DNA of 64,000 nt from Halococcus salsus (GTDB lineage Archaea; Halobacteriota; Halobacteria; Halobacteriales; Halococcaceae), in the NCBI RefSeq assembly GCF_009900715.1, contig NZ_JAAAJC010000003.1:1-64000 (forward strand), given 5' to 3'. A program made the position numbers and the translations under genes. Positions 7,007 through 47,090 of the stretch are shown here, piece by piece. The notes beneath the pieces were generated by a model, which searched no databases, had not been told where the DNA came from, and saw nothing but the letters and a program-made list of their open reading frames with translations. Each line of letters begins with the position of its first letter. Positions within the stretch are counted from its first letter, which is position 1.

Positions 7007-7301
7007 CCGTCTGGTCAGCTCCCCGGTACTGATCGACGAACCCGTCGGACCTCGTGGTCGCCACCATCGCCGATAAGTCAGTCACTCGTAACTCCACGCC
7101 AGCAGTGTGCTCCCCGCATTCGTCACGCGTTCCTCCGTCCCGAGGTGGTGGGAGCGAGTTGTCCACCCGTTCGAGCGAGAACACGGTCGTGTCGTCGCAT
7201 GTCGAGCGTTCGTTTTCCGGCGGTCCGTTTAAAGGTGATCCCGTCGGGGAGGGTCGTACGATAGTTACGCCGAGTTGGTTGGTCGTATACCCTTGTGCGG
7301 G

Positions 7302-10034: not shown

Positions 10035-10143
10035 ATCGGAGACGGGGTAGGGAGGCGAAAAACGCTATCGATATCAAACATAGCGAATTTGTCAAGATGG
10101 GTTGAGATTAATGCTAATGTGTTCTCAAGAGTAGATTGGCTGC

Positions 10144-10848: not shown

Positions 10849-10871
10849 CGTATTCTTGATTTTTGCGTACC

Positions 10872-12101: not shown

Positions 12102-12227
12102 ACGTAACTTATACGAACGAGGTAGGTAAAAGCTATCGTTCCGCCCGACGTCGGCCGCTCGGTCGAGGTATCGGGCCGACTCGGCCCCACCGAGGGTTTT
12201 TATTCGATGAGGAGGCCAGGCTCGCCA

Positions 12228-28748: not shown

Positions 28749-28964
28749 CTCCTGTTGCGCTCGGAGAATAATCGGGAGAAAGCGGGGGCTCTTCGCAACG
28801 CCGTTCGCCGAGAAACGAGCGAGTTGACTCTATTTTGCGACATCGCTTTTCGCCGCTGATTTGTGGTGATGGCGAAATCACAGTTTCATTGCTCTGTAAT
28901 ATGCCGGTATACGGATCCATATGACTAAGATTGATGTAGTATCGGTAAGTCGAAACAGGGTAGA

Positions 28965-30125: not shown

Positions 30126-30201
30126 GTTCGCTCTAATGACCTACCGCTGTAACAACTAAAAGAGCAATTCTACGTCTAACTTGTTTCGGCCGCAGGGAAA
30201 A

Positions 30202-30275
30202 TGCCGCCTCCCGGATTTGAACCGGGGACAGCTCGATCTTCAGTCGAGTGCTCTCCCAGTCTGAGCTAAGGCGGC
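30202..30275 (-). tRNA. tRNA-Phe (GAA)
   Basis: 74-nt cloverleaf on the minus strand: acceptor GCCGCCT/AGGCGGC, D arm GCTC...GAGC, anticodon arm CTCGA-CTGAAGA-TCGAG with anticodon GAA, T arm CCCGG-TTCAAAT-CCGGG, discriminator A. CCA is not encoded. It faces the AT-rich nuclease gene tail to tail, 76 bp away. Confidence 0.94.
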
Positions 30276-30433
30276 CCGCTCGGACCGAGGCCGACCGACG
30301 GAAAAAGGATTTCGAAAGCCCGCGCCGCCGGGTCGGGTCGTCGTCGAGGCTCCAGCGGGACGACGGGGCCGGGAAATCCACGTTTCCGGCTGGGTAACGC
30401 GGGTTTTTCCGCTTCGGACCCCCAGAAGCCCAC

Positions 30434-30523
30434 ATGACGACCGAGCAGCTCATTGGGATCCTCGCACTGATCGCGCTCCTCGTCTTCACCCTGACGTTCG
30501 TCGTCATCGCCCTCGCGAGCTAA
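30434..30523 (+). CDS. 29-aa single-TM small protein
   Basis: ATG 30434 to TAA 30523 encodes 29 residues beginning MTTEQLIGILALIALLVF; almost the whole product is one hydrophobic helix with an acidic N-terminus. GC at third positions is native-like, and the frame stands alone between tRNA-Phe and the MaoC gene with no better coding alternative. Similar tiny membrane proteins are often missed. Function unknown; could be a chance hydrophobic frame. Confidence 0.45.
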   Translation: MTTEQLIGILALIALLVFTLTFVVIALAS

Positions 30524-30607
30524 CGCGCTCGTCGGGTTCCGGTTCGCGGGCGGGACCACGACTGCCGTTCGACCCGTCGGCAGCGGGGACGGTATCGGCG
30601 GTCGGGG

Positions 30608-31231
30608 TTACTGACGAGCGGTGGTCGGGAGGTCGTCTATCAGGACCACGGCTTCGCCGGCGATGATCACCTCGTCGTCCTCGTTGTGGAGCGTCGTCTC
30701 GACCCGGTAGCGGTCGCCCCCGAGGGCCTCGATGACCTCGCAGTTCCCGGTGACGGTCTCGCCGATCCGAACCGGGTGGCGGAACTCGAGCTCTTGGGAG
30801 AGATAGATCGTCAACCCGGGCAGGCGCGCGAGCGCGGCGCTGATGAGGCCCGAGAGAAGCGTTCCGTGGGCGATCCGGCCCTCGAAACGGGTGTCCTCGG
30901 CGAACCCCTCGTCGAGGTGGAGCCGGTTCGTATCGCCGCTGATCCGGGCGAACGCCCGGACCTCCTCGTCCGCGATCCGCTTCGTGAACCGAACCCAGTC
31001 GCCGACCGCGAGGTCGGCGGCCGAGTCGACCGACCGCTCGACCTCCCAGTCGGGTTCCCGATAGGCCACTTCGGGGACCGCCGGGTCGAGCCGTGGCGCG
31101 GTCGCCGTGCTCCGCTCGAACGCGCCGATGGCCGCACGGTTGGCTTCGAGCGTGGAGGTGAACAGGTCGGACCAGAGGCGAAACCACGCGTCGCTGACGG
31201 CGGGGAAGTTGGTACCCGATGCGGAGCCCAT
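30608..31231 (-). CDS. MaoC-family (R)-specific enoyl-CoA hydratase-like protein
   Basis: 207-aa hot-dog-fold protein. The hydratase-2 motif is present: ARISGDTNRLHLDEGFAED ... GRIAHGTLLSG, containing the catalytic Asp and His of the (R)-specific enoyl-CoA hydratase group. An N-terminal about 75-residue helical extension (SDAWFRLWSDLFTSTLEANR) resembles the leader on halobacterial PhaJ-like proteins associated with polyhydroxyalkanoate granules. It would hydrate trans-2-enoyl-CoA to (R)-3-hydroxyacyl-CoA. PHA synthase genes are not in view, so PHA involvement is only suggested. Confidence 0.8.
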   Translation of the reverse strand: MGSASGTNFPAVSDAWFRLWSDLFTSTLEANRAAIGAFERSTATAPRLDPAVPEVAYREPDWEVERSVDSAADLAVGDWVRFTKRIADEEVRAFARISGDTNRLHLDEGFAEDTRFEGRIAHGTLLSGLISAALARLPGLTIYLSQELEFRHPVRIGETVTGNCEVIEALGGDRYRVETTLHNEDDEVIIAGEAVVLIDDLPTTARQ

Positions 31232-31301
31232 GATACACGAGGTAGGGTCGGTGAGGAGATAGCCCTTGCCACGAATCCGGGTGCAGCGGCGTCGTGACGA
31301 C

Positions 31302-31826
31302 TCAGACCGGGTCTTCGTCGGTGTCCCAGTCGTGGACCGTCGGTCCGTCCTCGTCGGCGAGTTCGTCGAGGCAGTCGTGGATCGTGTGCGTCAGTACGTC
31401 GTTCGACCACGGGGCGACACACCGGAGCTCGCCGTCCTCGCGGGTTGCGAGACACATGAGCGGGAATCCGATCACCCGCTGGCAGTCGTCGTCGGCGATC
31501 GATCTGCACTCGCGCTCTTCGAACGCCGACGGAAACCGGAGGTCGTTCGCCGACGCCCAGCGCGTGAACTCCTCGACCGTTTCGAGGATGGTTCGGCCGG
31601 GTTCGGTGCCGGCGAACGCCGACCCTGGGGCGATACCCCCGCCCCAGACGGTGACGGTCGAGGCGGCGATGCGTCCCGCTCGCTGGAGTCCCTCGATCCG
31701 GTCGACCACTCCCTCTTGCTCCGGTCGAGCGCCCGCCGGTGCCAACGAACGGACGAACAGCTCGACGGTGTAGTCCCGCCGGTGTTCGTCGGTCGGTGCC
31801 TCGGCCGGTGTTCGTGTCACTGCCAT
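31302..31826 (-). CDS. Conserved-type halobacterial protein, unknown function
   Basis: 174-aa soluble acidic protein. The first third is the most family-like (DYTVELFVRSLAPAGARPEQ, then VVDRIEGLQRAGRIA and VTVWGGG), a pattern I associate with uncharacterised haloarchaeal proteins. The centre carries cysteines in ECRSIADDDCQRVIGFPLMC that might bind metal or form a disulfide. The C-terminus is acidic. No catalytic motif. Monocistronic between the MaoC gene and the divergent aldolase. Confidence 0.65.
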   Translation of the reverse strand: MAVTRTPAEAPTDEHRRDYTVELFVRSLAPAGARPEQEGVVDRIEGLQRAGRIAASTVTVWGGGIAPGSAFAGTEPGRTILETVEEFTRWASANDLRFPSAFEERECRSIADDDCQRVIGFPLMCLATREDGELRCVAPWSNDVLTHTIHDCLDELADEDGPTVHDWDTDEDPV

Positions 31827-32014
31827 CGTGTGTCACCTCGTGTCCTCGCTCGACACGTCCCTCCGTAGGCGGCTGACGGGATTGTAGTTATCGGCCGTTC
31901 GGCCGTGTCGGTGAACGGACAGCGAGGAGCCGGAACGACGACCGGGGTCAGCGGACGGCGGAGGCATCGTCACGGGCGGTATCGTTATGCGGGTCGCCCC
32001 GCGCGTTTCGAACG

Positions 32015-32929
32015 ATGACCACGACCGCTCCCGACCGGTTCGGCGGCGCGCTGTGTCCGACTATCACCCCGTTCGCCGAGGGCGAGGTGAGCACCGCCGG
32101 CCTCGAAACCCTCATCGAGCACGTGATTGAGGGCGGCATCGACGGGCTGGTTCCGTGCGGGACGACCGGCGAGTTCGCCAGCCTCTCCGCGGCGGAGTAC
32201 CGGACCGTGATCGAGACGACGGTCGACGTCGCCGACGGACGGGTTCCCGTGATGGCGGGGACGGCGGGGACGAGCGTCGCCGGGACGGTCGAGAACGTCG
32301 CGTTCGCCGCGGAGGCGGGGGCGGACGCGGCGCTGATCACGCTGCCGTACTTCCACACCGCGAACGACGAGGCGGGCAACGAGGCCTTCCTCACCGCCGT
32401 CGCCGACGAAGCCGCTCTCCCCTGTTACCTCTACAACATCCCGTCGTGTACGGGCGCGCCGATCGCCCCCGAGACCGTCTCAACGGTCGCGGACCACGAT
32501 TCGATAGTGGGACTGAAGGATTCGGGCGGCGACTTCACCTACTTCCAGGACGTCGTCGAGCGGACGCCGGGGGATTTCCAGGTCTATCCGGGCTCCGACA
32601 GCCTCCTCGCGTGGGGGCTGCTCGCGGGCGCTGCCGGCGGGGTCTGTGCGCTCTCGAACGTCGTCCCCGAGGCGTTCGCGGCGCTCGTCGCCGCCGTCGA
32701 GCGCGGCGACGTCGAGACGGCGACCGACCTCCAGACGGGGATCACCTCGTTGTTTCAGGCCTGTGTCGCCCACGGGTTCGCCCCAACGGCGAAGGCCGGT
32801 CTCGTCGTTCGAGGGGTGCTCCCCGAGGCGACCCTCCGACCGCCGCTCGTCGAACTCGACGCGGACGCACGCGAGGCCGTCGAGACCGCGGTCGACGACG
32901 TTCTCGCGACCGTCGAAGCGAGCACCTGA
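32015..32929 (+). CDS. DHDPS/NAL-family class I aldolase (possible KDG aldolase)
   Basis: 304-aa TIM-barrel lyase of the dihydrodipicolinate synthase/N-acetylneuraminate lyase superfamily. Marks are the GTTGE carboxylate-binding loop (residues 49-53), Tyr140 in YLYNIPS and the Schiff-base Lys168 in VGLKDSGGD. Haloarchaeal members include 2-keto-3-deoxygluconate aldolases of the semiphosphorylative Entner-Doudoroff pathway as well as DapA, and the sequence does not separate these. No lysine pathway genes adjoin it, which mildly favours a sugar-acid aldolase. A TATA-like GTTATG stretch lies about 27 bp before the ATG. Confidence 0.82.
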   Translation: MTTTAPDRFGGALCPTITPFAEGEVSTAGLETLIEHVIEGGIDGLVPCGTTGEFASLSAAEYRTVIETTVDVADGRVPVMAGTAGTSVAGTVENVAFAAEAGADAALITLPYFHTANDEAGNEAFLTAVADEAALPCYLYNIPSCTGAPIAPETVSTVADHDSIVGLKDSGGDFTYFQDVVERTPGDFQVYPGSDSLLAWGLLAGAAGGVCALSNVVPEAFAALVAAVERGDVETATDLQTGITSLFQACVAHGFAPTAKAGLVVRGVLPEATLRPPLVELDADAREAVETAVDDVLATVEAST

Positions 32930-33152
32930 GCGAGTTTCCGAGCGTTCCCGCAGTCACGATCGTACTTCGAATTCCGTGTCGGACGGTCCTGTGTGACCGA
33001 ATCCCAACGCTTCGGGGACGCGTATCGACCCACAGTCACGTCTCGAACCGTTCGGCGCGGGTAGTCCGTCGAACGGACGGGCCAACCGACCCGAACGGCC
33101 CGTAGCTGCAAGCAGTCCCCTTTCCCCCATCGGGGGCGGAGGGAGTGAGACG

Positions 33153-33245
33153 ATGACCGGTGTCACACCCGAGACGAAGGCGCTCGCGGTCGACGAAGCC
33201 GTGGGACTGAAGCCGGTCGGTCGGGGAGCGATGTCGTCGCCATGA
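33153..33245 (+). CDS. Putative 30-aa leader ORF coupled to the next gene
   Basis: ATG 33153 opens a 30-codon frame (MTGVTPETKALAVDEAVGLK and so on) whose stop TGA (33243-33245) overlaps the ATG of the following membrane protein as ATGA. A purine-rich GGAGGGAG lies about 10 bp upstream. The exact ATGA junction is what one expects of a translated, coupled gene, but the product resembles nothing known and could be chance. Confidence 0.35.
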   Translation: MTGVTPETKALAVDEAVGLKPVGRGAMSSP

Positions 33246-34279
33246 GTGATACCGGCCCCGCGACCACCATGCGCGAGCGAACCGGCGACAGTCGCGTTCG
33301 CCTCTGGGTGTTGCTCACCGCGAACCGAGCCCTCGTCGCGGGGTTGTTGACGGTCGGGCTCTTCGTCGTGCTGGTCGCCGTCGGCGTCGTCAACGTCTAT
33401 CCGATACGAACCACGGTCCGCAACGGGACCCACATCGAGCGCCTCTTTCAGGCGTTCATCATGTCGATCATCACCGGGATCACGCTCGTGGTCACGCTCA
33501 ATCAGCTCGTGCTCTCGCGCGAGCTGGGGCCGCTCGGCGAGAAACGCGACGAGATGGCCGACGCGACGGAGTTCCGCCAACACATCGAGGAGATCACCGG
33601 GTCGGTCGCCCCGCCCGAACCCGCTTCGTTCATGCGGACGTTCATGCAGCTGAGCACGGACCGGGCGGACGACCTCAAGGAGGCGGTGGCGGACGATGGC
33701 GACGCGGAGCTCCGCGATAGCGTGAACGCGCTCGGCGAACGGATCCGAACGCAGGCGGACGACATCGGGGGGCAGCTCTCCGAGGCGGAGTTCGGCGAGT
33801 TCGAGGTCATTCCGGCGGTCCTGAACTACGACTACTCCTGGAAGATATACACCGCCCGGCGGCTCCGATCCGAACACAGCGAGTCGCTCTCCGAGGACGA
33901 ACGAACCGCGTTCGACGAGCTGATCCAGGCACTGAGCCTCTTCGCGCCCGCTCGCGAGCACTTCAAGACGCTCTACTTCCGGCGGGAGCTGGTCGATTTC
34001 TCCCGGAAGATGCTCTACGCCGGCGTCCCGGCGCTCGCGATATCGATCCTCGGGCTGGTCTATCTCGACCCCAACTCGTTCGTGGGGTCGACCCTGGGGA
34101 TGGCGAACCTCGTCTTCGCCATCAGCGCGGCGGTAGCCATCGCGTCGATGCCGTTCTTCGTGCTCGTGTCGTACATCCTCCGTCTCGGAACGATCGCCCA
34201 GCGAACGCTCGCGGTCGGCCCGTTCATCCTCCGGGACTCACAGCGCTCCGACGACATCGGGACGGGGGAGGACCAGTGA
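33242..34279 (+). CDS. Four-TM membrane protein of unknown function
   Basis: 345-aa protein with two N-terminal TMs (ALVAGLLTVGLFVVLVAVGV; FIMSIITGITLVVTLNQLVL), a soluble helical central domain of about 170 residues (coiled-coil-like, rich in E, D and R) and two C-terminal TMs (LYAGVPALAISILGLVYL; ANLVFAISAAVAIASMPFF). The layout suggests a sensor or scaffold on the cytosolic side. No family name could be given. Its stop overlaps the GTG start of the following lipoprotein, and its start overlaps a putative 30-aa ORF, making a tight operon. Confidence 0.7.
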   Translation: MSDTGPATTMRERTGDSRVRLWVLLTANRALVAGLLTVGLFVVLVAVGVVNVYPIRTTVRNGTHIERLFQAFIMSIITGITLVVTLNQLVLSRELGPLGEKRDEMADATEFRQHIEEITGSVAPPEPASFMRTFMQLSTDRADDLKEAVADDGDAELRDSVNALGERIRTQADDIGGQLSEAEFGEFEVIPAVLNYDYSWKIYTARRLRSEHSESLSEDERTAFDELIQALSLFAPAREHFKTLYFRRELVDFSRKMLYAGVPALAISILGLVYLDPNSFVGSTLGMANLVFAISAAVAIASMPFFVLVSYILRLGTIAQRTLAVGPFILRDSQRSDDIGTGEDQ

Positions 34280-34794
34280 CCCACCCACCCGAGACCGAGT
34301 CGCGCCGATTCAGTCGACGGCAGGTCCTCGCCCTCCTCGGTGCGAGCGGGTCGGTCGGGCTCGCCGGCTGTGGAACCGGGAGCGGGGACGTCCGATACGG
34401 CGACGAGCGGGACGTCGACCTCCCGACGACCGCCGACACGAACGCATCGAACGCGAGCGCGGCGAGCGCCGCGGCGGCGCGCGCCCAACTGGAGGGCGAC
34501 ACCTACGCCGTGCAGCTCGACGCGCTGGCCCTCCGGGATCACGGAATGGTCGTCCGGGACGACTACCGGGGCGCGGTAGTCCGGGGGAGCATCGAGAACA
34601 CCGGTCGCCAACGGATCGAGTTGGTCGAAGTCCGGGCACGGGTCTACAACAGCGATGGCGAGCAACTGGGCCGGTACCTCGACAGCACCTACGACCTCGC
34701 CGCGGGGTCGACGTGGAGCTTCGAGGCCATCGTTCTCGAAGACCCGGCGGACATCGCCTCGTACGACGTGGCGGTGCTCGGCTCGTTGGGATGA
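34276..34794 (+). CDS. Tat lipoprotein with FxLYD-like domain
   Basis: 172-aa exported lipoprotein. GTG 34276 overlaps the preceding stop. Signal: SRRFSRRQVLALLGASG plus lipobox LAGC. After an Asn/Ala/Ser linker, the C-terminal 90 residues read as an FxLYD domain: AVVRGSIENTGRQRIELVEV, then VRARVYNSDGEQLG and AGSTWSFEAIV. Such beta-sandwich domains are common in haloarchaeal surface lipoproteins. It is the last chromosomal gene before the tRNA-Met-linked integrated element. Confidence 0.8.
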   Translation: MTHPPETESRRFSRRQVLALLGASGSVGLAGCGTGSGDVRYGDERDVDLPTTADTNASNASAASAAAARAQLEGDTYAVQLDALALRDHGMVVRDDYRGAVVRGSIENTGRQRIELVEVRARVYNSDGEQLGRYLDSTYDLAAGSTWSFEAIVLEDPADIASYDVAVLGSLG

Positions 34795-34855
34795 CTTTCG
34801 AGGATGCTGTCGAACGCGGGAACGACGAAGGTGAAGTCGAAAGCGGGCGAGCCCG

Positions 34856-34907
34856 CTGTCGGCTGGAAATCGACTAAAGAGGTGGATGGGCCCTGTCGGA
34901 TTCGAAC
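34856..34907. repeat. Left attachment repeat (att), with displaced tRNA-Met 3' end
   Basis: 52 bp matching 41354-41405 at 51 positions. It begins CTGTCGG and ends GATTCGAAC in the tRNA T loop; the tRNA-derived part is 34887-34907. About 30 bp beyond the tRNA end are also duplicated. The heptamer CTGTCGG occurs twice within each copy. Confidence 0.9.
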
Positions 34908-34908
34908 G

Positions 34909-34945
34909 AAAGCGGCGGAATAACTTGAAAAAGTAAAGCCGCTTT
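34909..34945. promoter_or_regulatory. Inverted repeat with GAAA loop immediately inside the left att site
   Basis: AAAGCGGC (34909-34916) pairs with GCCGCTTT (34938-34945), and within it ACTT-GAAA-AAGT forms a second stem. It starts one base after the att repeat and lies about 55 bp before the integrase start. It could be an integrase arm-type site, an autoregulatory operator, or an RNA hairpin in the integrase leader. Confidence 0.6.
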
Positions 34946-35000
34946 CACAGGACCCGTATCTCGCCCCGATGCCCTCCCTGTCTTCTACGGAGACTCGATA

Positions 35001-36014
35001 ATGGTAGAACTCGAACCAATAACTCCGTCAGAAGCAAAGGACCTGTACCTCGCACAGAGGGAAGGAGAAGTATCGGAAGAAACGTTACAATCCCATCATT
35101 ACAGGCTGAAGTCGTTCGTGTCATGGCTTGATGACATGGACGTTCGGAACATGAACAGTCTCACCTCTCGTCACATCCACAAGTTCCGGCTCTTTCGGAA
35201 GGAGGAGAAGGATATCAACAAAGTGACGGTGAGAACCCAACTCTCGACAATTCGAGTGTTCGTCAAATTCCTCGAATCGATCGATGCCGTGGAGCAGGGA
35301 TTATCCGAGAAGATCCTCGTTCCGAAAATGGAGGGAAACGAGAATGTCCGTGATAGGCTCCTCTCCTCCGAGCAGGCCGACAACCTCCTCGAATATCTCC
35401 GCCGGTACGAATATGCGAGCAGGACTCATGCTATGCTCGAAGTATTGTGGTCCACTGGTTGCAGGATGGGCGGGCTACACTCCTTAGACCTCGGTGACTT
35501 TAACCGAGAGGAACGCTCGCTCGCCTTCCGTCATAGACCCAGCAAGGGCACTCGCTTGAAGAATAAGCATGCTGGCGAGAGGCTGGTCGCTCTCCCGAAC
35601 GATGTGGCGGATGTGCTGTCAGACTACATCGAAGTCAATCGGAACGAGGTCGAAGACGATCATGGGCGGAGTCCTTTGTTCACGACCTCTGGAAACAGAA
35701 TGGGTAAGTCTCAGATTAGGTCGCTGATCTACTCTGCTACAAGGCCCTGTCAGTACGGCGAGGAATGTCCTCATAGCAGGGACCCTGATGAGTGCGAGGC
35801 GAACTCGTACAAGGATGCCAGCAAATGTCCGTCGAGTGTATCGCCACACGATATTAGGCGAGGTGGACTGACCCACCTCTTGAAAGAGGGAATGCCCAAA
35901 GAGGTCGTTTCAGACAGGGCGAACGTCGAGGAAGGAGTACTCGACAAACACTACAATAAGATGACAGAACAAGAGAAGATGGAACAGAGGAGAGATCATC
36001 TAGACAACCTGTAA
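35001..36014 (+). CDS. int: Tyrosine recombinase/integrase (SNJ2-like family)
   Basis: 337-aa site-specific recombinase. Residues 1-110 form a SAM-like core-binding domain (SEETLQSHHYRLKSFVSWL). The catalytic domain carries Arg155 (STGCRMGGLHSL), His283-x-x-Arg286 (SPHDIRRGG) and the nucleophile Tyr318 (LDKHYNKM). Four cysteines (250, 256, 265, 276) between the first Arg and the HxxR box could bind zinc; such a cluster with KCPSSVSPH is typical of haloarchaeal integrases related to that of temperate virus SNJ2, which also uses tRNA-Met. It would catalyse recombination between the 52-bp repeats. ATG 35001; codon usage more AT-rich than chromosomal genes. Confidence 0.92.
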   Translation: MVELEPITPSEAKDLYLAQREGEVSEETLQSHHYRLKSFVSWLDDMDVRNMNSLTSRHIHKFRLFRKEEKDINKVTVRTQLSTIRVFVKFLESIDAVEQGLSEKILVPKMEGNENVRDRLLSSEQADNLLEYLRRYEYASRTHAMLEVLWSTGCRMGGLHSLDLGDFNREERSLAFRHRPSKGTRLKNKHAGERLVALPNDVADVLSDYIEVNRNEVEDDHGRSPLFTTSGNRMGKSQIRSLIYSATRPCQYGEECPHSRDPDECEANSYKDASKCPSSVSPHDIRRGGLTHLLKEGMPKEVVSDRANVEEGVLDKHYNKMTEQEKMEQRRDHLDNL

Positions 36015-36103
36015 TTTGTCCGAGAACGTCTCATTTTTGCCGAGGCGCGCTGCTAGCATCTTACAAGTAATTGCCATCGTATTGAATCAGAACAGATCCT
36101 GAG

Positions 36104-36478
36104 CTAATCTGAGCGATTCTGAGACGATTGCTCAATCCAGACAGGGCTAGTTCCGTGAGTCGTCTTGAGGTACACACTACTTAAATAGTCTGTCGTGGCC
36201 TCATCCGAGGTATCACTATTCAGGGGAGGGGCCACGCTTCTAGCATAGGCAAGCGCCCGCTCACTTTTCCAATTCAGTGGCCCGATCTCCATCGAGGGGC
36301 CGAACGTCACCGGATGGATGCAGGTAGCGGGATACTCTTGTTCGATCTCGGAATAGCGAGCGGCCAGATATTGAATCACTGCATCCTCCCCTACATCGAG
36401 GCCGAACACACCTTCGCCAATGAGGTAGGCTCGCGCTAATTCGAGCCCCGTCTCTCCGTCGATTTGTAGCTCACTCAT
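36104..36478 (-). CDS. Element operon protein 5, paralogue of the two upstream proteins
   Basis: 124-aa protein. Its first 45 residues (LQIDGETGLELARAYLIGEG ... GEDAVIQYLAARYSE) align with the N-terminal domain of the two preceding gene products, sharing ET, the hydrophobic spacing, ED.VI and A..Y. The C-terminal 75 residues are unrelated and contain two tryptophans and TTDYLSSVYLK. Last gene of a coupled operon: its ATG (36478) overlaps the upstream stop as ATGA. No known family recognised. Confidence 0.75.
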   Translation of the reverse strand: MSELQIDGETGLELARAYLIGEGVFGLDVGEDAVIQYLAARYSEIEQEYPATCIHPVTFGPSMEIGPLNWKSERALAYARSVAPPLNSDTSDEATTDYLSSVYLKTTHGTSPVWIEQSSQNRSD

Positions 36479-36717
36479 CTTCCCGGTCGGCGCGACCTTT
36501 CTTCTTTGAAGCGTCGGCGAAGGCGTCTCTGTTCCGAGTTGACGGCTCCACTAAGCTCCTCCGAGGAGTTGGAATCCCCACCCTCATCCAAGAGGTAGGC
36601 CGACGCTATATGCCGAATCACCTCATCCTCGCTAGAGCGGTGGGAGAGGGTGTTATCTCCTTGAATACACTCTCGGACAAGCTCATCCGTCTCGGATGAA
36701 AGCTCGAATTGACTCAA
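36475..36717 (-). CDS. Element operon protein 4, short paralogue
   Basis: 80-aa protein. QFELSSETDELVRECIQGDN followed by HRSSEDEVIRHIASAYL matches the N-terminal domain of the next upstream protein (17 of 44 residues identical without gaps). The rest holds SSEELS and a very basic helix SEQRRLRRRFKEERSRR that matches the end of the same upstream protein. It looks like that protein with its middle removed. The basic tail could bind nucleic acid. ATGA overlaps on both sides. Confidence 0.78.
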   Translation of the reverse strand: MSQFELSSETDELVRECIQGDNTLSHRSSEDEVIRHIASAYLLDEGGDSNSSEELSGAVNSEQRRLRRRFKEERSRRPGR

Positions 36718-37118
36718 TCTAGGATCTCCTTTTTCAATCGCCGTTGCTCCTTCTCCACAGGCGATAGATTCTCGTCCGATAATTCGGCCTCGTCCGAGGG
36801 TCCATCGAGGTCTAGCTGTTCACGTAATTCCGCCCGCTTCGCCTGAGCCTCGGACATTCCCTCGGTATCAGGGCTGGATTCCTCCTTGGCCGAGGGCAGT
36901 CCCATCGACTCGCGCAAGTCGTGCTGGTAGCTCTCTACTTCCGAGAGTTCTTCGCTGCCGCCCTCTTTGGATTCTTGGGCCTCAAGATACTCTGCGGCGA
37001 GGAAACGGACGATTCTCTCCTCCGATGATCGACTCGACAGATGGTTCTTGTATCGGGGCACCTCATTCAGCGCCTCGACAACAGGCGGGGAAAGCTCGAA
37101 GAATTTACTCATCTTCAA
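36714..37118 (-). CDS. Element operon protein 3, FELS-domain protein with triple C-terminal repeat
   Basis: 134-aa very acidic protein. Residues 5-48 (FFELSPPVVEALNEV ... SRSSEERIVRFLAAEYL) define the domain shared by three consecutive genes here. The C-terminal half has three copies of a short helical motif: LSEVESYQHDLRESMGL, MSEAQAKRAELREQLDL and LSPVEKEQRRLKKEILD. ATG 37118 (or 37112) overlaps the upstream gene. A role in DNA binding or in assembling a complex with its paralogues is possible but not shown. Confidence 0.78.
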   Translation of the reverse strand: MKMSKFFELSPPVVEALNEVPRYKNHLSSRSSEERIVRFLAAEYLEAQESKEGGSEELSEVESYQHDLRESMGLPSAKEESSPDTEGMSEAQAKRAELREQLDLDGPSDEAELSDENLSPVEKEQRRLKKEILD

Positions 37119-37566
37119 ACGCCTCCTCTAGCAGAGGGCGAATTATCCCATGACGCATAGCCTTGCTCGTATGGCTCGTATTGTAATCAGTCTCCATCGA
37201 TGCTAGCTCTGACTCGGAGATTGATGCATCGACAATACTCCGCTCCTTGGGCGGAACCGTGACTCTCATACGATGAATACGGCGAGCGCCATCCGGTGTC
37301 CTGAGGCTCACAGCAGGCTCTGTCGGCTCAATCGTGGAAGCGTCAAGGTTCCCCTGAATCGCTAATCGGAGCAGCTGGTGTAGGCCGTCGTTATGCCCCA
37401 ATGCTTTGTCCGTCAGGCGAGGTTTCTGGTGAGTATCTACTCCGAACCCCTCCACGACTTGTAGGAGTTGCTCGTACTCCTCTGTCGGAAGCTCGAAGCC
37501 GATTCCCTCAGTGGTGCGATGGTCAATTACCCCTACATTCAGGGCTTCCGTGATCGCCTCATTCAT
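37105..37566 (-). CDS. Element operon protein 2, unknown function
   Basis: 153-aa acidic protein. GIGFELPTEEYEQLLQVVE followed by LHQLLRLAIQGNL resembles, more distantly, the FELS-type domain of the following three proteins. The C-terminal half contains ARRIHRMRVTVPPKERSIVD and ends in an acidic helix. No recognised family. The start overlaps the stop of the first operon gene (ATGA), and its own end overlaps the next gene by 14 bp. Confidence 0.75.
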   Translation of the reverse strand: MNEAITEALNVGVIDHRTTEGIGFELPTEEYEQLLQVVEGFGVDTHQKPRLTDKALGHNDGLHQLLRLAIQGNLDASTIEPTEPAVSLRTPDGARRIHRMRVTVPPKERSIVDASISESELASMETDYNTSHTSKAMRHGIIRPLLEEAFEDE

Positions 37567-37703
37567 CGGCGAGACTCCTCGGCCAATAGCCGCGCCATGG
37601 CCCCAATCGTAATTCTCCGCCCCTCACCGAAGCGTCGTTCTCGCGCTTCTTCGAGCGCCTGATGCTCGTCTTCAGTCAGCTTCACTTGCTTCATAGTTGA
37701 CAT
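37563..37703 (-). CDS. Element operon protein 1, 46-aa putative ribbon-helix-helix-like regulator
   Basis: ATG 37703 is preceded 7 bp upstream by GGAGG, which decides the start; the frame could extend to 37775 but would then translate a tRNA-like sequence. The product opens MSTMKQVKLTEDEHQALEEA and continues with a short helix-turn-helix-sized segment. A beta-strand-like KQVKL followed by two helices resembles a truncated CopG/RHH DNA-binding protein. It may regulate the operon it heads. Its stop overlaps the next ATG. Confidence 0.6.
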   Translation of the reverse strand: MSTMKQVKLTEDEHQALEEARERRFGEGRRITIGAMARLLAEESRR

Positions 37704-37722
37704 TCCTAGTCCTCCGTGAACA

Positions 37723-37747
37723 GGAGGGGGCTGGATTCGAACCAGCC
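37723..37747 (-). other. tRNA 3'-end-like sequence inside the operon leader
   Basis: Read on the minus strand, GCTGG-TTCGAAT-CCAGC is a perfect T arm, followed by CCCCTCC like an acceptor 3' strand. The upstream bases do not complete a cloverleaf: no GGAGGGG is found within 100 bp. It is distinct from the tRNA-Met att sequence. It could be a relic of another tRNA integration or a folded leader element. Confidence 0.55.
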
Positions 37748-37836
37748 TCCCTTGCCGGATTTGCACCGACTTCATGAACGAATGTTACATCGAATCGACG
37801 GAACACGCTCGAAGAAGCTGTGACACTTCCATCATT

Positions 37837-37860
37837 GGAGATAGTAGAGTGACTATCTCC
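37837..37860 (-). promoter_or_regulatory. 9-bp hairpin at predicted 5' end of element operon transcript
   Basis: GGAGATAGT pairs perfectly with ACTATCTCC around a 6-nt loop. It begins about 25-30 bp downstream of the promoter-like box at 37877-37889, so the transcript would start with or near this hairpin. This implies a structured leader of about 155 nt before the first gene. Confidence 0.55.
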
Positions 37861-37876
37861 GGTGTACCTAGGAGCC

Positions 37877-37889
37877 GCAGCTACTTAAA
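37877..37889 (-). promoter_or_regulatory. Promoter-like box TTTAAGTAGCTGC for the leftward operon
   Basis: Minus-strand TTTAAGTA resembles the haloarchaeal TATA element. The identical 13-mer recurs on the plus strand at 39004-39016, where no gene follows. Spacing to the leader hairpin is about 17-25 bp, as expected for a transcription start. Confidence 0.55.
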
Positions 37890-39003
37890 ACTTTTGGTTG
37901 TTAGTTATGAAATAATATACGAAAAAGAGGTGCGTTCATTTCATTCGAGTCGGTTTGCCGGAGGGAGAGGCCTGCTATCGTCCGAATCTACACCCCCCAA
38001 GCCCCCCTGTTCCGATAGACGGGCTAAGACTCGATTCTATGGGTGGCTCATGGAGGTGCAAGGGATGATGTATATTTGAAGCAAATGAGCCTAATTCGAA
38101 GGCGAACGGCCAGTATATCGCCTCTCTCGGAGGATTAGCTTTTCGAGCCTCACCCAATACCTACAACAATTGCCGGTAGTTTGGGAATCCGACTTCCTCA
38201 AGTGGTGTTTTCGATGCTCTCACGCGGTTCTAATTGTCAAATTCGCAGGAATTGGGGTAGGCTGTTACAAGTGTTACAGATGTAACCAATTAGTCCTGTG
38301 ACTCAGGCGATATATTTTCGCTCGCGGGTTGGCCTGTATATATAGCGAGGCTGACACTCATTTATATAAAAAAGTTTGACAATTTCCCCACTTGCGCGAT
38401 TTGTTATTTCTTTGGGAAGATTCGCGCCGTTCTCGCCCGAAAACATCGAATAAAATTCATAATGATTTTGCCTGAGACGGGAGCAAGACATACCACAAAT
38501 CAGATACATCTATTAAAGGAATTTGATACATATGTATTATGATAGGATGAAACGGCGAAATTCGAGCGATTGAGCGGGCCAATTCTGAACCTGCAAGGAT
38601 GGAACCCCCACTAAGCAAAGATAAGGATGCTTATTCTCACAGAACCCCCAATTTCACCTGCAAGAATTCTGCCGAACGCTGCTTTCAGGCTCGCTCGACA
38701 CTACTAAGCGGAAAGTAGCTATTACGGTATATTTGCCCTATTCGTCCAAATAGAGGCTCGACCTGCTTCTCGGCGCTTTAGTGTAGGGTTGCGACCCTCG
38801 AACCATGCTCCACGGCCTTACTCGAAGGCCGAAACCGCTCTCGGCAGTGTTTGCGCCTCTCTCGAAGACTGAGCCTACGATATTCGCTAAGGCAACGAGA
38901 TTCGCACAATATGGCGGCCCTCGCGCCAATATCGGGGTTCTCGAAAAAGGCTCTCAATGACTCAAATCAGGATAGCTCAGAGGAGTAAACAACTCCCGAA
39001 AGG
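37890..39003. other. AT-rich segment without convincing genes
   Basis: About 1.1 kb. Open frames are short and lack halobacterial codon bias. It contains a strong palindromic TATA (TTTATATAAA, 38361-38370), short direct repeats (ACCTGCAAG near 38590 and 38656; GAACCCCCA near 38602 and 38642), and several GCTCG/CTCGAA motifs between 38690 and 38950. Iteron-like clusters in AT-rich DNA can mark a replication origin, but no Rep gene is seen. Confidence 0.5.
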
Positions 39004-39016
39004 TTTAAGTAGCTGC
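39004..39016 (+). promoter_or_regulatory. Promoter-like box TTTAAGTAGCTGC, plus-strand copy
   Basis: Identical over 13 bases to the box at 37877-37889 on the other strand. Followed about 20-30 bp later by a segment able to fold into hairpins rather than by a reading frame. Confidence 0.5.
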
Positions 39017-39032
39017 AACCCTTACGTTAGGT

Positions 39033-39130
39033 TATGCTGAGGTCTGGCTTGCCCTCGGCAAAGTTCGTACCAACTTCGTTCAAGCTTACGGAAGGGTGCT
39101 AGGCACGCCCTGAACACATCGTTTTCATAC
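39033..39130 (+). ncRNA. Candidate structured RNA 1 of the integrated element
   Basis: Starts about 25 bp after the TTTAAGTA box. Predicted stems: CTGAGG with CCTCGG enclosing GCTTGCC; AAGTT-CGTACC-AACTT (39061-39076); GGGTGC-TAG-GCAC-CCC (about 39094-39112), followed by a T-run that could terminate transcription. It shares the loop octamer GCTTGCCC with the next structured segment. No coding frame. Identity unknown. Confidence 0.4.
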
Positions 39131-39168
39131 CCACAGATTAACCGGCAATCTTTACGATCATCGAAACC

Positions 39169-39179
39169 TTTAAGTATCT
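39169..39179 (+). promoter_or_regulatory. Second TTTAAGTA promoter-like box
   Basis: TTTAAGTATCT lies 165 bp after the first plus-strand box. AAGTATCT (39172-39179) is also inverted at 39199-39206, so the site may be a small operator as well as a TATA element. Followed by candidate RNA 2. Confidence 0.45.
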
Positions 39180-39197
39180 ATAGCACCTACTAGTAAA

Positions 39198-39345
39198 CAG
39201 ATACTTCGGTTCGCTGGAGCTTGCCCCTCCCCGAAGTTGGTACGGACTAAGGAACCTCTCAGGGCGATAGTCTGGTATACGGCAAAGCAAGCCTCTCCGT
39301 TGGAAAAGGGTTGTATCCACTGGGTGCAATCACACTGAACCCCGC
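39198..39345 (+). ncRNA. Candidate structured RNA 2 of the integrated element
   Basis: A strong hairpin at 39203-39237 pairs ACTTCGG with CCGAAGT and, inside it, GGAG with CTCC around CTTGCCC. Downstream GGACTA and TAGTCT can pair, and GCAAGCCTCTCC offers an alternative partner for GGAGCTTGC. CGAAGTTGGTAC (39232-39243) is exactly complementary to 39067-39078 in candidate RNA 1. No coding frame is convincing. Could be a regulatory RNA pair. Confidence 0.4.
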
Positions 39346-39828
39346 ATAGGTCGTTGGATGCGTGTGGAGTAAGTTACTGTATCGGAGAAGTTCGAGGAAC
39401 TGACCTCACTAATGGACGTTTTTGCAGTTGCGGTAATAGTCCTTTAGTGAGAGTTGTTTTCCTGTTGTAGTTCTCTACACATGTGCCGAATGGCTAAAGA
39501 TTCGGTACGGAACGTTAACATCAGGAACGCTAGTCTGAGTTTTTACAGACTCAGGATAGTTGTTCTCCTCGAAGGATTGACCGTCGCGGTCTATCTATCG
39601 AGAGATAGGCTGGCGGCCCCTCCTCCGAGAAGATAGACAGGCTGTTCATCGTTCGAGGGCTGATCCACTCCCTTAGACGAGTCAACCCCTCAGACTAGCG
39701 TCCCATGATGTGAACGTCCCGTACCTGAGGCTATGGCCCTCGGCAGGAGGAGCAGCCCGACGTTCTCGAATGGATCTGTATACAGAGGGTATACTTCCCC
39801 ATCGATGCAAGATCGAGAGGTCCGCCGT
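39346..39828. other. Non-coding segment with two further hairpins
   Basis: No credible gene. Two perfect 6-bp hairpins: AGTCTG/CAGACT (39532-39551) and CTATCT-ATCGAG-AGATAG (39591-39608). They lie downstream of the orphan gene at 39829-40212, whose transcript runs into this region, so they might also act as terminators. Confidence 0.45.
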
Positions 39829-40212
39829 CTATCGGGAGAGTCTGTAGAACGACCACTCTTGATCCACATCTCCGTCAAGAGCATCAGCGAATTGGTCATA
39901 TTCTTCCTCATTAACGGAGATCTGTTCGGCAAAGTCAACATCAAACTCTCGCTTATCGACTTGACCCTCATCGACAAGCATCTCTGTAAGGATCTCGATT
40001 TTAGCAGTCGTTAGGATGACTCCTTCCTTCTCCTCTTGCGCCCCTGCTGCATTCAGATCCGAAGGCATGGACACATCAGGGAATAGCGTTGATCGGAGGT
40101 CGGATATAGCTACGATTCTATCAGGGTTGGCTCTGAAAATTCCAAGAATGTCTTGTTTCAATGATTGTTGCGGCTCCCCTTCTTCCCAGTCTAGCCCTTG
40201 TGACCAAGACAT
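39829..40212 (-). CDS. Element-encoded acidic orphan protein
   Basis: 127-aa protein, acidic, no TM. The N-terminal half (SLKQDILGIFRANPDRIVAI, then SDLRSTLFPDV) has the pattern of a winged-helix domain, with a helix, a short strand-like IVAISDL and a further helix. The C-terminal part ends WSFYRLSR. Only 170 bp separate it from the other orphan gene on the same strand. Function unknown; a transcription regulator is possible. Confidence 0.65.
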   Translation of the reverse strand: MSWSQGLDWEEGEPQQSLKQDILGIFRANPDRIVAISDLRSTLFPDVSMPSDLNAAGAQEEKEGVILTTAKIEILTEMLVDEGQVDKREFDVDFAEQISVNEEEYDQFADALDGDVDQEWSFYRLSR

Positions 40213-40382
40213 GATAGATTATTCTATACGAACGCATTTCAACTTGATGGACTATATCGCGGTCAGACTCTATCGATACCTCTCCGCTCGTGAGAGGGCG
40301 AGAGACTTTCCTGAAAGCAGGAAATAGGGATCGTTCGATTATGATAACACAACCCAAGTCCTGCCCTTACTTGGCTTGATGG

Positions 40383-41057
40383 CTACCAGTGTGGCTGAAG
40401 TTCATCGGAAACAAAGGCTGCCAAGTCATCGGATCCAGCTGCAGGTTCCATAATTCGAACGAATCCACTCGCCGAGACCTCCATTTTCGTCTGGCGGCCA
40501 TTGTGCTGAAACTCCAGACCAAGCTGGTTCTTGTTGGATTGCTGGAGAACGGTCCCCATATTGGGGTCATTTGGAAGATCAGTCCCATAGACAACCCCCT
40601 TGTCAGCATTCCCACCGAGGTTGCTGAAACCATACTTCCATGGTAGCGCATTCGGTCGAGTTTGCGCATATGCATCGAGGTCTATAGTTGGTCGAGTTAC
40701 GCTGATGCTATTCGTACTACCAAGTATGTCAAAGAAGAACTTACCTGAAGTGTCACCGATTATGATGAACTCATTCGGACACAGTATGAAATCAGTTACA
40801 CTCGCTATTTTTTCCCATGTGTTTGTCGATTGGATGCTACCGTTCTGAACCGTAGGTTTCGAGACATTATTAGCAACTTCTGCGAGTGCTCTACCAGTTT
40901 GGACCGTGATTTGGTTTCCATTCGGTGTGGTTACGGATGATGCGGGCCCAACCTCAACGCACTCATTGAGAGTCATTCCATGATTTTGGTGGCTAGATGT
41001 GTATGACTGCATACTAGGAAAGTTGCCATTACCAGTCCCAATGATACCTCGCTTCAT
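40383..41057 (-). CDS. Element-encoded orphan protein, beta-rich
   Basis: 224-aa protein from ATG 41057. The sequence is rich in N, S, T, G and Q, with few charges in the middle, unlike typical acidic halobacterial enzymes. It has runs suggesting beta structure (NQITVQTGRALAEV; DFILCPNEFIIIGDTSGKFFF; SISVTRPTIDLDAYAQ) and a C-terminal VRIMEPAAGSDDLAAFVSDE. Such composition is common among virion and surface proteins, but no family was recognised. It is the gene nearest the right att site, with about 300 bp of non-coding DNA (41058-41353) before the att repeat. Confidence 0.65.
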   Translation of the reverse strand: MKRGIIGTGNGNFPSMQSYTSSHQNHGMTLNECVEVGPASSVTTPNGNQITVQTGRALAEVANNVSKPTVQNGSIQSTNTWEKIASVTDFILCPNEFIIIGDTSGKFFFDILGSTNSISVTRPTIDLDAYAQTRPNALPWKYGFSNLGGNADKGVVYGTDLPNDPNMGTVLQQSNKNQLGLEFQHNGRQTKMEVSASGFVRIMEPAAGSDDLAAFVSDELQPHW

Positions 41058-41353
41058 TAGTAACCAATACGACCTGTATGAGTATAAAGGTAACGTTAAA
41101 ACACAATTGTAAGTATAGATATCATTCCTTGATGCAGTGTTTCCGGATAGATGCTCTATCAATCATCACGAACAGTTTCGTAAGTAGTCAGTCAAACATA
41201 CGTTGACAGCCATTCTCCAGTCTTGTTTGACCGAAAGAACTAGGTTCCCCCGCAGCATCTCGACTATCGTAGAAGGCACGAGGGCGCGGGGTGCGTCAAG
41301 GTGCTTAGTCGAACTCGGCACGATGTAGGCGAAATCGCAAGAAGTGAAGGCTA

Positions 41354-41405
41354 CTGTCGGCTGGGAATCGACTAAAGAGGTGGATGGGCCCTGTCGGATT
41401 CGAAC
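41354..41405. repeat. Right attachment repeat (att), overlapping the intact tRNA-Met 3' end
   Basis: Partner of 34856-34907, differing at one base (GGCTGGGAATCG against GGCTGGAAATCG). Bases 41385-41405 are the 3' end of the functional tRNA-Met gene, so the element carried a copy that keeps the tRNA complete after integration. Confidence 0.9.
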
Positions 41406-41457
41406 CAACGACCACTCGGTTATGAGCCGAGCGCTCTCACCACTGAGCTAAGGGCCC
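41385..41457 (-). tRNA. tRNA-Met (CAT)
   Basis: 73-nt cloverleaf: acceptor GGGCCCT/AGGGCCC, D arm GCTC...GAGC, anticodon arm CTCGG-CTCATAA-CCGAG, T arm GTTGG-TTCGAAT-CCGAC, discriminator A. Probably elongator Met; a CAT anticodon could also be an Ile tRNA with modified C34. It is the integration target of the 6.5-kb element. Confidence 0.9.
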
Positions 41458-41545
41458 GTTCACGAACCACTCGTCAGTGAATCCATAAAATCGCTTCTGT
41501 TGTGGCGCGCCGCGCTCCGCTCGCCGTCGTGTTCGCTGGAGAAAG

Positions 41546-41618
41546 CGCCGCCGCCAGGGCTCGAACCTGGGACAACCTGGGTAACAACCAGGTGCTCTAC
41601 CAGCTGAGCTACGGCGGC
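41546..41618 (-). tRNA. tRNA-Asn (GTT)
   Basis: 73-nt cloverleaf: acceptor GCCGCCG/CGGCGGC, D arm GCTC...GAGC, anticodon arm CCTGG-TTGTTAC-CCAGG, T arm CCAGG-TTCGAGC-CCTGG, discriminator G. It lies 88 bp from tRNA-Met on the same strand and is divergent from the CCA-adding enzyme gene. Confidence 0.94.
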
Positions 41619-41702
41619 CCTGTTTGTGGGAAGCGGGAGTTCGTTCATAGCCGTTTCGCTTTCGACCGACACGTTTTCGCCCGCGGGTGGGGTAGCCGGG
41701 CC

Positions 41703-43079
41703 ATGAGCGACGCCCTCGACGCCGTGCTCGCGCGGGTTCGCGACCGCGTCACGCCCGACGACGACGAGCGCGCGCGTCTCGACGGGGCCGTCGCCCGGCT
41801 CACCGAACGCACCGCTGCGGCGCTCGACGGCCTCCCCGTCGCGGCCGACCCCCTCCACGTGGGTTCCACGGCCCGGGGGACCTGGCTCCCCGGCGACCGC
41901 GACATCGACCTGTTCGTTCGGTTCTCGCCCGACCTCCCGCGGACGGACCTCGAACGCTACGGGCTCGCGGTGGGTCACGACGTCCTCCCCGACGCCCACG
42001 AGGAGTACGCCGAGCATCCCTACGTCGTCGGCGAGTTCGACGGGTTCGCGGTCGACCTCGTGCCCTGCTACCGCGTCGAACGCGCGAGCGAGATCCGATC
42101 CGCGGTCGACCGCACGCCGTTTCACACCCGCTACCTCGACGCCCGGCTCGACGAGGGCTTGGCCACCGAAGTCAGGCTCGCGAAGCGCTTCCTCGACGCC
42201 ATCGGCGTCTACGGCAGCGACCTCCGCACGCGGGGGTTCTCGGGCTACCTCACGGAGCTCCTCGTCGTCGAGCACGGCGACTTCCGCTCGCTGGTGACCG
42301 CCGCGGCCGACTGGCACCCGCCCCTCGAGTTCGACCCCGAATCCCACGGGAGCCGTTCGTTCGCCGACCCGTTGACGATGGTCGACCCCACCGACCCCGG
42401 GCGCAACGTCGCGGCGGTGCTCTCGGCCACGAACCTCGCACGTTTCCAACACTACGCCCGCGACCTCCTGGCCGACCCGCGCGAGGCGCTCTTCACGGCC
42501 GAATCACCAGTTCCGCTCTCGGCCGACGGCGTGCAGCGGGCGGTCGAGCGCCGCGGCACCACCCCGCTCGCGCTCCGGTTCGACGCCCCCGACATCGTCG
42601 ACGACCAGCTCTACCCCCAGCTCGAAAAGTCGGTGTCGGGCATCGTGACCGCGCTGGAAGGACGGGGGTTCGACGTGCTCCGGAGGGCCGCGTTCGCCGA
42701 CGACACGGCGGTGCTGTTCCTCGAACTCGCCGTCGCTCGCCGACCCGCGATCGAACGCCACGAGGGCCCGCCGGTGGCCGCACGCGAGCACGCCACGCGG
42801 TTCTACGAGACCTACGCCGACCGGGACTGCGACGGCCCGTTCGTCGACGGCGAGCGGTACGTCGTCGAGCGCGAGCGCGAGTACCGCACCGCCCGCGCGT
42901 TCCTCGACGCCGGGGTGTTCGAGGACGTCGCGCTCGGGGCGGACATCGAGACCGCGCTCGGGGCGGACATCGAGACCGCGCTCGGCGACGAGTACGAAGT
43001 TCTGGAGGGTGACGAGGTCGGCGCGCTCGCCGAGGAGTTCGGGACGGAGCTCGCGGCCTACTTCTCGCCGAGCCCGTGA
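41703..43079 (+). CDS. cca: Archaeal (class I) CCA-adding tRNA nucleotidyltransferase
   Basis: 458-aa enzyme that adds CCA to tRNA 3' ends. The class I nucleotidyltransferase signature is clear: HVGSTARGTWLPGDRDIDLFV with paired catalytic Asp residues, and a third Asp in FAVDLVPCYRV. A later RGFSGYLTELLVV and the tail domain match archaeal CCA enzymes. All six tRNA genes in this window lack encoded CCA, so the enzyme is essential. Near the C-terminus an exact 24-bp tandem duplication (42930-42977) repeats the eight residues ALGADIET, an expansion within an acidic loop. The 3' end overlaps the HDAC-family gene by 22 bp. Confidence 0.92.
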   Translation: MSDALDAVLARVRDRVTPDDDERARLDGAVARLTERTAAALDGLPVAADPLHVGSTARGTWLPGDRDIDLFVRFSPDLPRTDLERYGLAVGHDVLPDAHEEYAEHPYVVGEFDGFAVDLVPCYRVERASEIRSAVDRTPFHTRYLDARLDEGLATEVRLAKRFLDAIGVYGSDLRTRGFSGYLTELLVVEHGDFRSLVTAAADWHPPLEFDPESHGSRSFADPLTMVDPTDPGRNVAAVLSATNLARFQHYARDLLADPREALFTAESPVPLSADGVQRAVERRGTTPLALRFDAPDIVDDQLYPQLEKSVSGIVTALEGRGFDVLRRAAFADDTAVLFLELAVARRPAIERHEGPPVAAREHATRFYETYADRDCDGPFVDGERYVVEREREYRTARAFLDAGVFEDVALGADIETALGADIETALGDEYEVLEGDEVGALAEEFGTELAAYFSPSP

Positions 43080-44068
43080 GCCGCGCGGGCGTCGTCGATC
43101 ACGCTCTGGGCCTCCTCGTCGACCTCGTCGTCGGGCTCGACCGGTTCGTAGCCGTCGAAGACCTCGTTGGTCATCTCGACACCGTCGGCGATCGTTTCGA
43201 GGCCGTAGCCGCCTTCGAGCACGAACCCGAGCGCCGCGTCGAGCCGGTCGGCGAGCGAGCGGGCGCGCGCCGCCAGCACGCCGTAGCCCTCCGTCGAAAC
43301 CGACATCCGCGAGATCGGGTCGTTCACGTGGGCGTCGAAGCCCGCGCTGATGAGGAGCAGGTCGGGGTCGAAGCCAGCGAGCACCGGCGCGAACGCGGTT
43401 TCGATCGCTTCAACGTAGGCCGCGTCGCCGCTACCCGCCCGGAAGGGGATGTTGACCGTCGTGCCCGTTCCCTCGCCGGTCCCGGTCTCGTCGACGGTGC
43501 CGGTGCCGGGGTAGAGGCCGTGTTCGTGGATCGAACAGTAGCAGACGTCGTCGCGGTCGTAAAAGATGTCCTGGGTGCCGTTGCCGTGGTGGACGTCCCA
43601 GTCGATCACCGCGACCCGGTCGAGGCCGTCGTCGAGGGTGGCCTGGGCGGCGACCGCGGCGTTGTTGAAGAAGCAAAACCCCATCGCGTCGTCGGCGACG
43701 GCGTGGTGGCCCGGCGGGCGACCGAGCGAGAACGGCGTGTCACGTCCCGTCGCGCCCGCTACGGCTTCCTCGGCGGCCCACACCGCGAGGCCAGCGCTCT
43801 TGCACGCCGCCTCCCAGGTCGCCTCGACCGCGACGGTGTCGGGGTCCCACTGGCCACCGCCCGAGTCGCAGAACTCCCTGAACTCCTGGACGTAGTCGTC
43901 GTCGTGGACTCGACGGGCGGTCTCGGAGGTGATCGGGTCGGCGTCGATATACTCGACGCCGTGGCGGTGCGCGAGGCCGCGCCGGATCGCCCGGAGCCGG
44001 TCTGGGCTCTCGGGGTGGCGCGGACCCGGGTCGTGTCGGAGGCAGTCGGTGGAGTAGCCGAATCTCAT
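43058..44068 (-). CDS. Histone deacetylase-superfamily (acetoin utilisation/HDAC) protein
   Basis: 336-aa class II-like deacetylase. Metal and catalytic residues stand in GRPPGHHAVADDAMGFCFFN, VIDWDVHHGNGTQDIFY and LISAGFDAHVNDP, with a Tyr in LEGGYGLETIA. The family removes acyl groups from lysines, polyamines or small metabolites. The upstream gene encodes an archaeal histone and overlaps this one by four bases (ATGA), so the two are cotranslated, which hints at protein (histone or other) substrates. Histone acetylation is not demonstrated by sequence. Confidence 0.88.
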   Translation of the reverse strand: MRFGYSTDCLRHDPGPRHPESPDRLRAIRRGLAHRHGVEYIDADPITSETARRVHDDDYVQEFREFCDSGGGQWDPDTVAVEATWEAACKSAGLAVWAAEEAVAGATGRDTPFSLGRPPGHHAVADDAMGFCFFNNAAVAAQATLDDGLDRVAVIDWDVHHGNGTQDIFYDRDDVCYCSIHEHGLYPGTGTVDETGTGEGTGTTVNIPFRAGSGDAAYVEAIETAFAPVLAGFDPDLLLISAGFDAHVNDPISRMSVSTEGYGVLAARARSLADRLDAALGFVLEGGYGLETIADGVEMTNEVFDGYEPVEPDDEVDEEAQSVIDDARAAHGLGEK

Positions 44069-46941: not shown

Positions 46942-47016
46942 TTCACTCACTTCGTTCGTTCACGACCTGGCGTGCCCTGCGCTCGCTTCGCTCGCGCAGG
47001 ACTCCGCCAGGACGTT
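46929..47016. repeat. Direct repeat of the tRNA-Arg 3' end (possible att pair)
   Basis: CTCCGCCAGGACGTT occurs at 46929-46943 (the tRNA T stem, acceptor and beyond) and again at 47002-47016. Such duplications arise by integration or local duplication at tRNA genes. The second copy sits about 75 bp before the FokI-like nuclease gene. No third copy was seen on the far side of that gene. Confidence 0.6.
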
Positions 47017-47090
47017 TTCGCGACGCAAACTGATGAGCGAAGCCGCTGGATCTGGATTGCACTTTTGTTCATCGGCCGTGAGTATTCGAC

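Follow-up and report, generated by a model that had tools for sequence, protein, structure and literature searches.

SNJ2-like tyrosine integrases sit on many integrated elements (PMC8371274), and the type is defined by Phage_int_SAM and Phage_integrase domains together with identity of 30% or more across 60% of the protein length (PMC8371274). SNJ2 itself is a betapleolipovirus for which the literature gives a tRNA-Met gene as the target, and its experimentally defined origin contains GTGTGGCTAAGGCCA (PMC13107129). Other small haloarchaeal replicons, the rolling-circle plasmids of the pGRB1, pHGN1, and pZMX201 type, have small cryptic genomes with a DUF1424/HUH replication protein (Rep); the consensus of their double-strand origins is TCTCGGCnnnCnnnG (PMC9569500). 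Here we describe an element in Halococcus salsus that resembles each of these in part. It lies at 34856-41405 of a 64,000-nt stretch of contig NZ_JAAAJC010000003.1 (positions 1 to 64,000), which is called the window below. Judged from its sequence, it is probably a nonviral integrative mini-element of the cryptic-plasmid kind, in which a structured noncoding RNA/origin module stands in place of Rep and which is kept mainly by integration. An initial annotation of the locus had offered a satellite, a minimal integrative plasmid, or a new class of element; the minimal integrative plasmid fits best.

Insertion at tRNA-Met and the integrase

The element is bounded by direct repeats at 34856-34907 and 41354-41405 that are identical at 51 of 52 positions, with the mismatch at 34867, and that are embedded in a longer 92-bp register of 83% identity. 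ARAGORN places the attachment gene, tRNA-Met(CAT), on the minus strand at 41385-41457, and 21 nt of the right, tRNA-proximal repeat are the 3´ end of this tRNA. The distal attachment copy, away from the tRNA gene, comprises a tRNA-Met 3´-end fragment and downstream sequence. Insertion at the 3´ end of a tRNA gene with direct repeats is characteristic of the SNJ2-type family. Between the repeats, the GC content drops from about 0.68 to 0.47-0.54, such that the interior is about 50% GC compared with about 68% for the genome.

The close relative G002 has an empty site. There, 6765-11470 of locus L145 align with the left flank (window 30201-34910) at 91% identity, and 11364-14001 with the right flank (window 41300-43958) at 94%. 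In G002 these flanks are adjacent, with one 107-bp copy of the repeat and no element, and thus the element is a 6,498-bp insertion. Both the 52-bp repeat overlapping the tRNA-Met 3´ end and the integrative element of about 6.5 kb, which the initial annotation had proposed, are borne out by these data. When each repeat copy is compared with the empty site, native-like sequence extends on the tRNA-proximal side as far down as about 41305, but the divergence of the distal copy reaches back to about 34808. Because the copies diverge unequally (34808-34910 / 41300-41408), the crossover could sit at the opposite edge of the 107-bp homology and not at the tRNA end. Its position would then be some 70 nt downstream of the tRNA; alternatively, the element may have captured host DNA from a relative. 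The element is 6,498 bp long under either placement of the crossover.

The element carries an intact integrase gene and about seven small open reading frames (ORFs). The 337-aa integrase (35001-36014, plus strand) has PF00589 (Phage_integrase, 3e-12) and PF02899 (the SAM-like Phage_int_SAM, 4e-9) domains, shows the R, HxxR, and Y residues in its translation, and is 45% identical to the SNJ2 integrase and 47% to that of HRPV9 over 99% of the protein. By its domains and identity it belongs to the SNJ2 type, as annotated. The accompanying claim, that relatives with such an integrase are characteristically pleolipoviruses, did not stand. SNJ2-type integrases were matched in 355 of 394 haloarchaeal genomes (1e-40 or better), and pleolipovirus genes were nearby at one of the 20 closest integrase loci checked (L049, which also holds a second integrase), in line with the range of elements reported earlier (PMC8371274). 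Given that these integrases are widespread and that 19 of the 20 closest loci are without pleolipovirus genes, the lack of virion genes is ordinary. The host genome encodes a second SNJ2-type integrase (39%; L151, G000:C2:182447-183442) in a region of 0.47-0.60 GC with no pleolipovirus genes nearby. From the repeats and the intact integrase, we infer that the integrase would excise the element as a 6.5-kb circle and reinsert it at tRNA-Met.

A plasmid-type control region without a recognizable Rep

Five genes for small proteins, A to E, make up an operon on the minus strand (E-D-C-B-A). The 46-aa product of E (37563-37703, with the ORF open to 37775) has a CopG-like sequence pattern and profile relatives, and its size, pattern, and position make it likely that E is a CopG-type copy-control regulator. 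An HUH-type Rep is encoded close to E relatives in six other genomes (L097, L098, L099, L173, L175, and L176). Of these Reps, the one in L098 has matches to DUF1424 (3e-11) and to Reps from small circular plasmids, pZMX201 and pHGN1 among them. Relatives of C and D are likewise found in integrated elements carrying HUH-type Reps. One further E-profile match, in genome G296 (4.6e-5, L174), was not counted; it was unconfirmed by tblastn and Rep was absent nearby. Like the six integrated relatives, several of which also have an integrase, the element has a CopG-like E and a promoter-bearing ORF-free control region. The operon that E appears to head would face this region as it does in integrated haloarchaeal rolling-circle plasmids.

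The control region (37776-39828) spans 2.05 kb, or 31% of the element, and was not mentioned in the initial annotation. It lacks coding periodicity, and none of its six frames matches Pfam. A motif common to five elements, resembling a B recognition element and TATA box (BRE/TATA), occurs in it three times. One site (37871-37902, minus strand) is the promoter-like sequence of the E operon. The other two, at 38991-39022 and, 165 nt further on, at 39156-39187, are in tandem on the plus strand, directed into the ORF-free region. An E-type regulator combined with this shared promoter motif is also what the integrated rolling-circle relatives have. In those relatives the Rep gene adjoins the control region; here that place is occupied by the tandem promoters and a structured ORF-free stretch, with no recognizable Rep, and the control region is 2 kb rather than about 0.7 kb and includes the structured core and long hairpin described below. 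L097 (8033+/8180-) and L099 (9056+/9188-), both Rep-bearing relatives, each have a pair of promoter motifs facing one another in the leader of rep, as would be expected if an antisense RNA controlled this gene.

The stretch 39025-39730 is predicted to fold far better than shuffled sequences (z -6.5). This stretch includes a candidate noncoding RNA core (39255-39420, plus strand) with one hairpin at 39309-39331 and a second, the CTGAACCCC hairpin, at 39335-39357. The core is shared with L096, a 5,089-bp contig (JARUKX010000084.1) of Haloarculaceae archaeon H-GB1-1 that encodes homologues of E and C but in which no Rep is seen, and in both sequences it runs TATCCACTGGGT ... CTGAACCCC. Upstream of E, L096 has the same layout on the same strand, with two tandem promoter sites followed by the core and then by a hairpin that is again long (z -4.7). 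The spacings in the element and L096 are 165 and 171 nt between promoters, 147 and 142 nt from promoter to core, and 190 and 206 nt from core to hairpin, respectively. The local alignment of the two cores has a Smith-Waterman score of 35, a value that 2 of 5000 shuffles attained. In the 10-bp hairpin of the core, three two-sided changes and one one-sided change separate the sequences with no broken pair, and sliding the partners destroys the pairing. The L096 cargo is unrelated to that of the element, and its tyrosine recombinase is different.

Further copies of the core were sought. When a covariance model of the two founders was run over 63 loci (about 1 Mb), it recovered those two alone. 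Rfam 15 scans of the element and L096 gave nothing above chance, and BLASTN searches of phages, plasmids, and 394 haloarchaeal genomes with the element or its ORF-free region returned only the self-match. Five exact-pattern matches in IMG/VR were judged to be chance, being without the complementary stem, and a stricter pattern gave none. A short ORF was rejected as the explanation for the core, since the L096 frame is without a start codon and conservation extends beyond the stop.

Downstream of the core, a very long imperfect hairpin (39490-39740, plus strand) is near-continuous over 250 nt, with a predicted RNA folding energy of -114 kcal/mol (z -7.3; z -6.6 as DNA). The hairpins of the element and L096 share their position and have no sequence relation. 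Single-strand origins of rolling-circle replicons are long imperfect palindromes, and this hairpin may be a candidate for such an origin or for the 3´ domain of the noncoding RNA. The pZMX201-type origin motif TCTCGGC also occurs twice in the ORF-free region, the best site (38839) having one mismatch to the consensus; these occurrences are not significant and may reflect chance.

Hallmarks of viruses and of Rep-encoding plasmids were not found in the element. It has no homologue of the spike and NTPase genes expected of Pleolipoviridae, both of which were recognized in the pleolipovirus-like proviruses L111 and L115, and no Rep-Arvir (PF25227) gene. The nick motif GTGTGGCTAAGGCCA, which is exact in SNJ2, HRPV9, HHPV4, and L111, is absent, with four mismatches in the best match. 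The element thus resembles SNJ2 in its integrase family and tRNA-Met target, and differs from it in all of these features, in having no homologue of Orf2 or Orf3 by sequence, and in being about one third the size. No HUH Rep gene and no HUH-like motif were found in any frame. A degraded rep in the ORF-free region was considered and rejected, given no six-frame Pfam match, no tblastn match to the relatives' Reps, and no periodicity. The earlier statement that the element has no recognizable replication or virion genes is therefore upheld.

In the model we favor, the promoter-fed stretch would give rise to a regulatory and/or origin noncoding RNA and contain a single-strand-origin-like hairpin. 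The element would be maintained mainly through integration, and any replication would depend on a Rep acting in trans or on the RNA itself. The combination of a small, likely CopG-type regulator and a candidate noncoding RNA is like the control system of pMV158, by analogy only, as the pMV158 RNA is antisense to rep (PMC4485353) and the element has no rep to control. A second parallel concerns replication. ColE1-kind replicons are RNA-primed and Rep-less, and the element similarly has no recognizable Rep protein, while its control region has a candidate structured transcript several hundred nt long. In contrast to ColE1-kind replicons, no antisense RNA I-like promoter was found in the element, and the host is an archaeon.

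Several observations weigh against this model. Only two sequences carry the core, such that the covariation rests on two, and with this number the shuffle control for covariation was reached by 57 of 500. RNAalifold of the whole region gave -65 compared with -63 for the best control, which is barely better. The absence of Rep in L096 is uncertain because the 5,089-bp contig may be incomplete. The long hairpin is equally strong on the opposite strand, with few G-U pairs, and may therefore act as DNA. Finally, AlphaFold models of D and G were uninformative (predicted local distance difference test scores of 36-37), and for this reason a diverged Rep could hide among A, D, F, or G.

Alternative explanations

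The strongest competing explanation is decay, in which an integrated plasmid or provirus lost rep and is now fixed, with the 2 kb of ORF-free sequence as leftover DNA. The missing Rep, the large ORF-free fraction, and the absence of related copies from the other genomes that were searched would all be expected of such a remnant. However, the integrase and all of the small ORFs are open, and no trace of Rep is seen in six frames. The promoters, core, and long hairpin recur in L096 with the same geometry, and the empty site in G002, a relative at 91-94% identity, suggests that the insertion is fairly recent. We regard decay as possible, though distinctly less probable than the model we favor.

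A bolder version of the model we favor is that the ORF-free region is a new class of archaeal noncoding RNA that replaces Rep and primes or controls replication of the circle, with the element and L096 as members of a Rep-less, RNA-based family. On the sequence comparisons above, we consider this unlikely.

It is more doubtful still that the element can replicate as a plasmid with a Rep of its own among the unrecognized small proteins A, D, F, and G. In favor of this, Reps vary widely among archaea, and recognition of Rep-Arvir came only recently (PMC13107129). However, A to E are short and resemble small DNA-binding proteins, B and C are paralogues, G belongs to a virus accessory family and lies apart from the replication genes in L111, and the HUH-like motif is missing throughout.

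The last possibility, a pleolipovirus satellite replicated by a helper Rep and packaged in helper vesicles, was raised by the initial annotation and would suit the SNJ2-type integrase, the tRNA-Met site, and the G homologues inside L111 and L115, but we give it little credence, as the SNJ2-type nick motif is absent, the host genome has no Rep-Arvir match (in a search that did match the control genome, Haloferax volcanii) and no match to the SNJ2 NTPase (in a search without a positive control), and the integrase type is not virus-specific, with no virus gene near the host's second copy.

Other genes, the surrounding window, and implications

The remaining genes are on the minus strand. A (36104-36478, 124 aa) has an N-terminus weakly like B and C and no convincing family match. 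B (36475-36717, 80 aa) and C (36714-37118, 134 aa, with a likely start at 37112) are 40% identical by blastp (3e-10), and the L096 relative of C, 43% identical over 42 aa, adjoins the E homologue. D (37105-37566, 153 aa) weakly resembles the product of the gene that follows E in L097 and in L098. F (39829-40212, 127 aa) is possibly a winged-helix protein, by inspection only, and has no family match. G (40383-41057, 224 aa, with the ORF open to 41162) belongs to phrog_18169, an accessory family of haloarchaeal viruses and integrated elements with members in 38 of 294 haloarchaeal genomes. Homologues are found in the tailed virus BJ1, in L111 and L115, and in two IMG/VR contigs; by homology, G is an accessory cargo gene shared with haloarchaeal viruses. 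The initial view that the other genes match no recognized family is thus only partly right, given the family of G and the relatives of E, C, and D in Rep-bearing elements. A search with defense-system models gave no match, and scans of viral contigs with its own D, G, integrase, and E profile revealed no relative.

The G homologues in L102, L104, L105, L109, L111, and L113 recur with two or three neighbors of about 340, 210, and 219 aa, which have no convincing Pfam, PADLOC, or PHROG match. By this recurrence, the G homologue and its neighbors are a predicted conserved cargo module, which is found also inside L111, a betapleolipovirus-like provirus. Elsewhere in the window, a low-GC (0.49) island at 28750-30200, between tRNA-Ala and tRNA-Phe, carries a 386-aa ORF (28965-30125) resembling a restriction-type protein; G002 has about 390 bp there. 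Isolated 1-kb GC dips to 0.47-0.48 at 10001-11000 and 47001-48000 are possible small insertions.

Small haloarchaeal integrative elements are easily mistaken for broken viruses. The element described here illustrates what appears to be a recurring alternative, a plasmid-type control module joined to a mobile integrase, with rep apparently replaced by a structured noncoding region. If Rep-free replication does occur by way of such a region, we know of no earlier archaeal case. The structured region recurs in another haloarchaeal family and, if transcribed, would represent an unclassified archaeal RNA.

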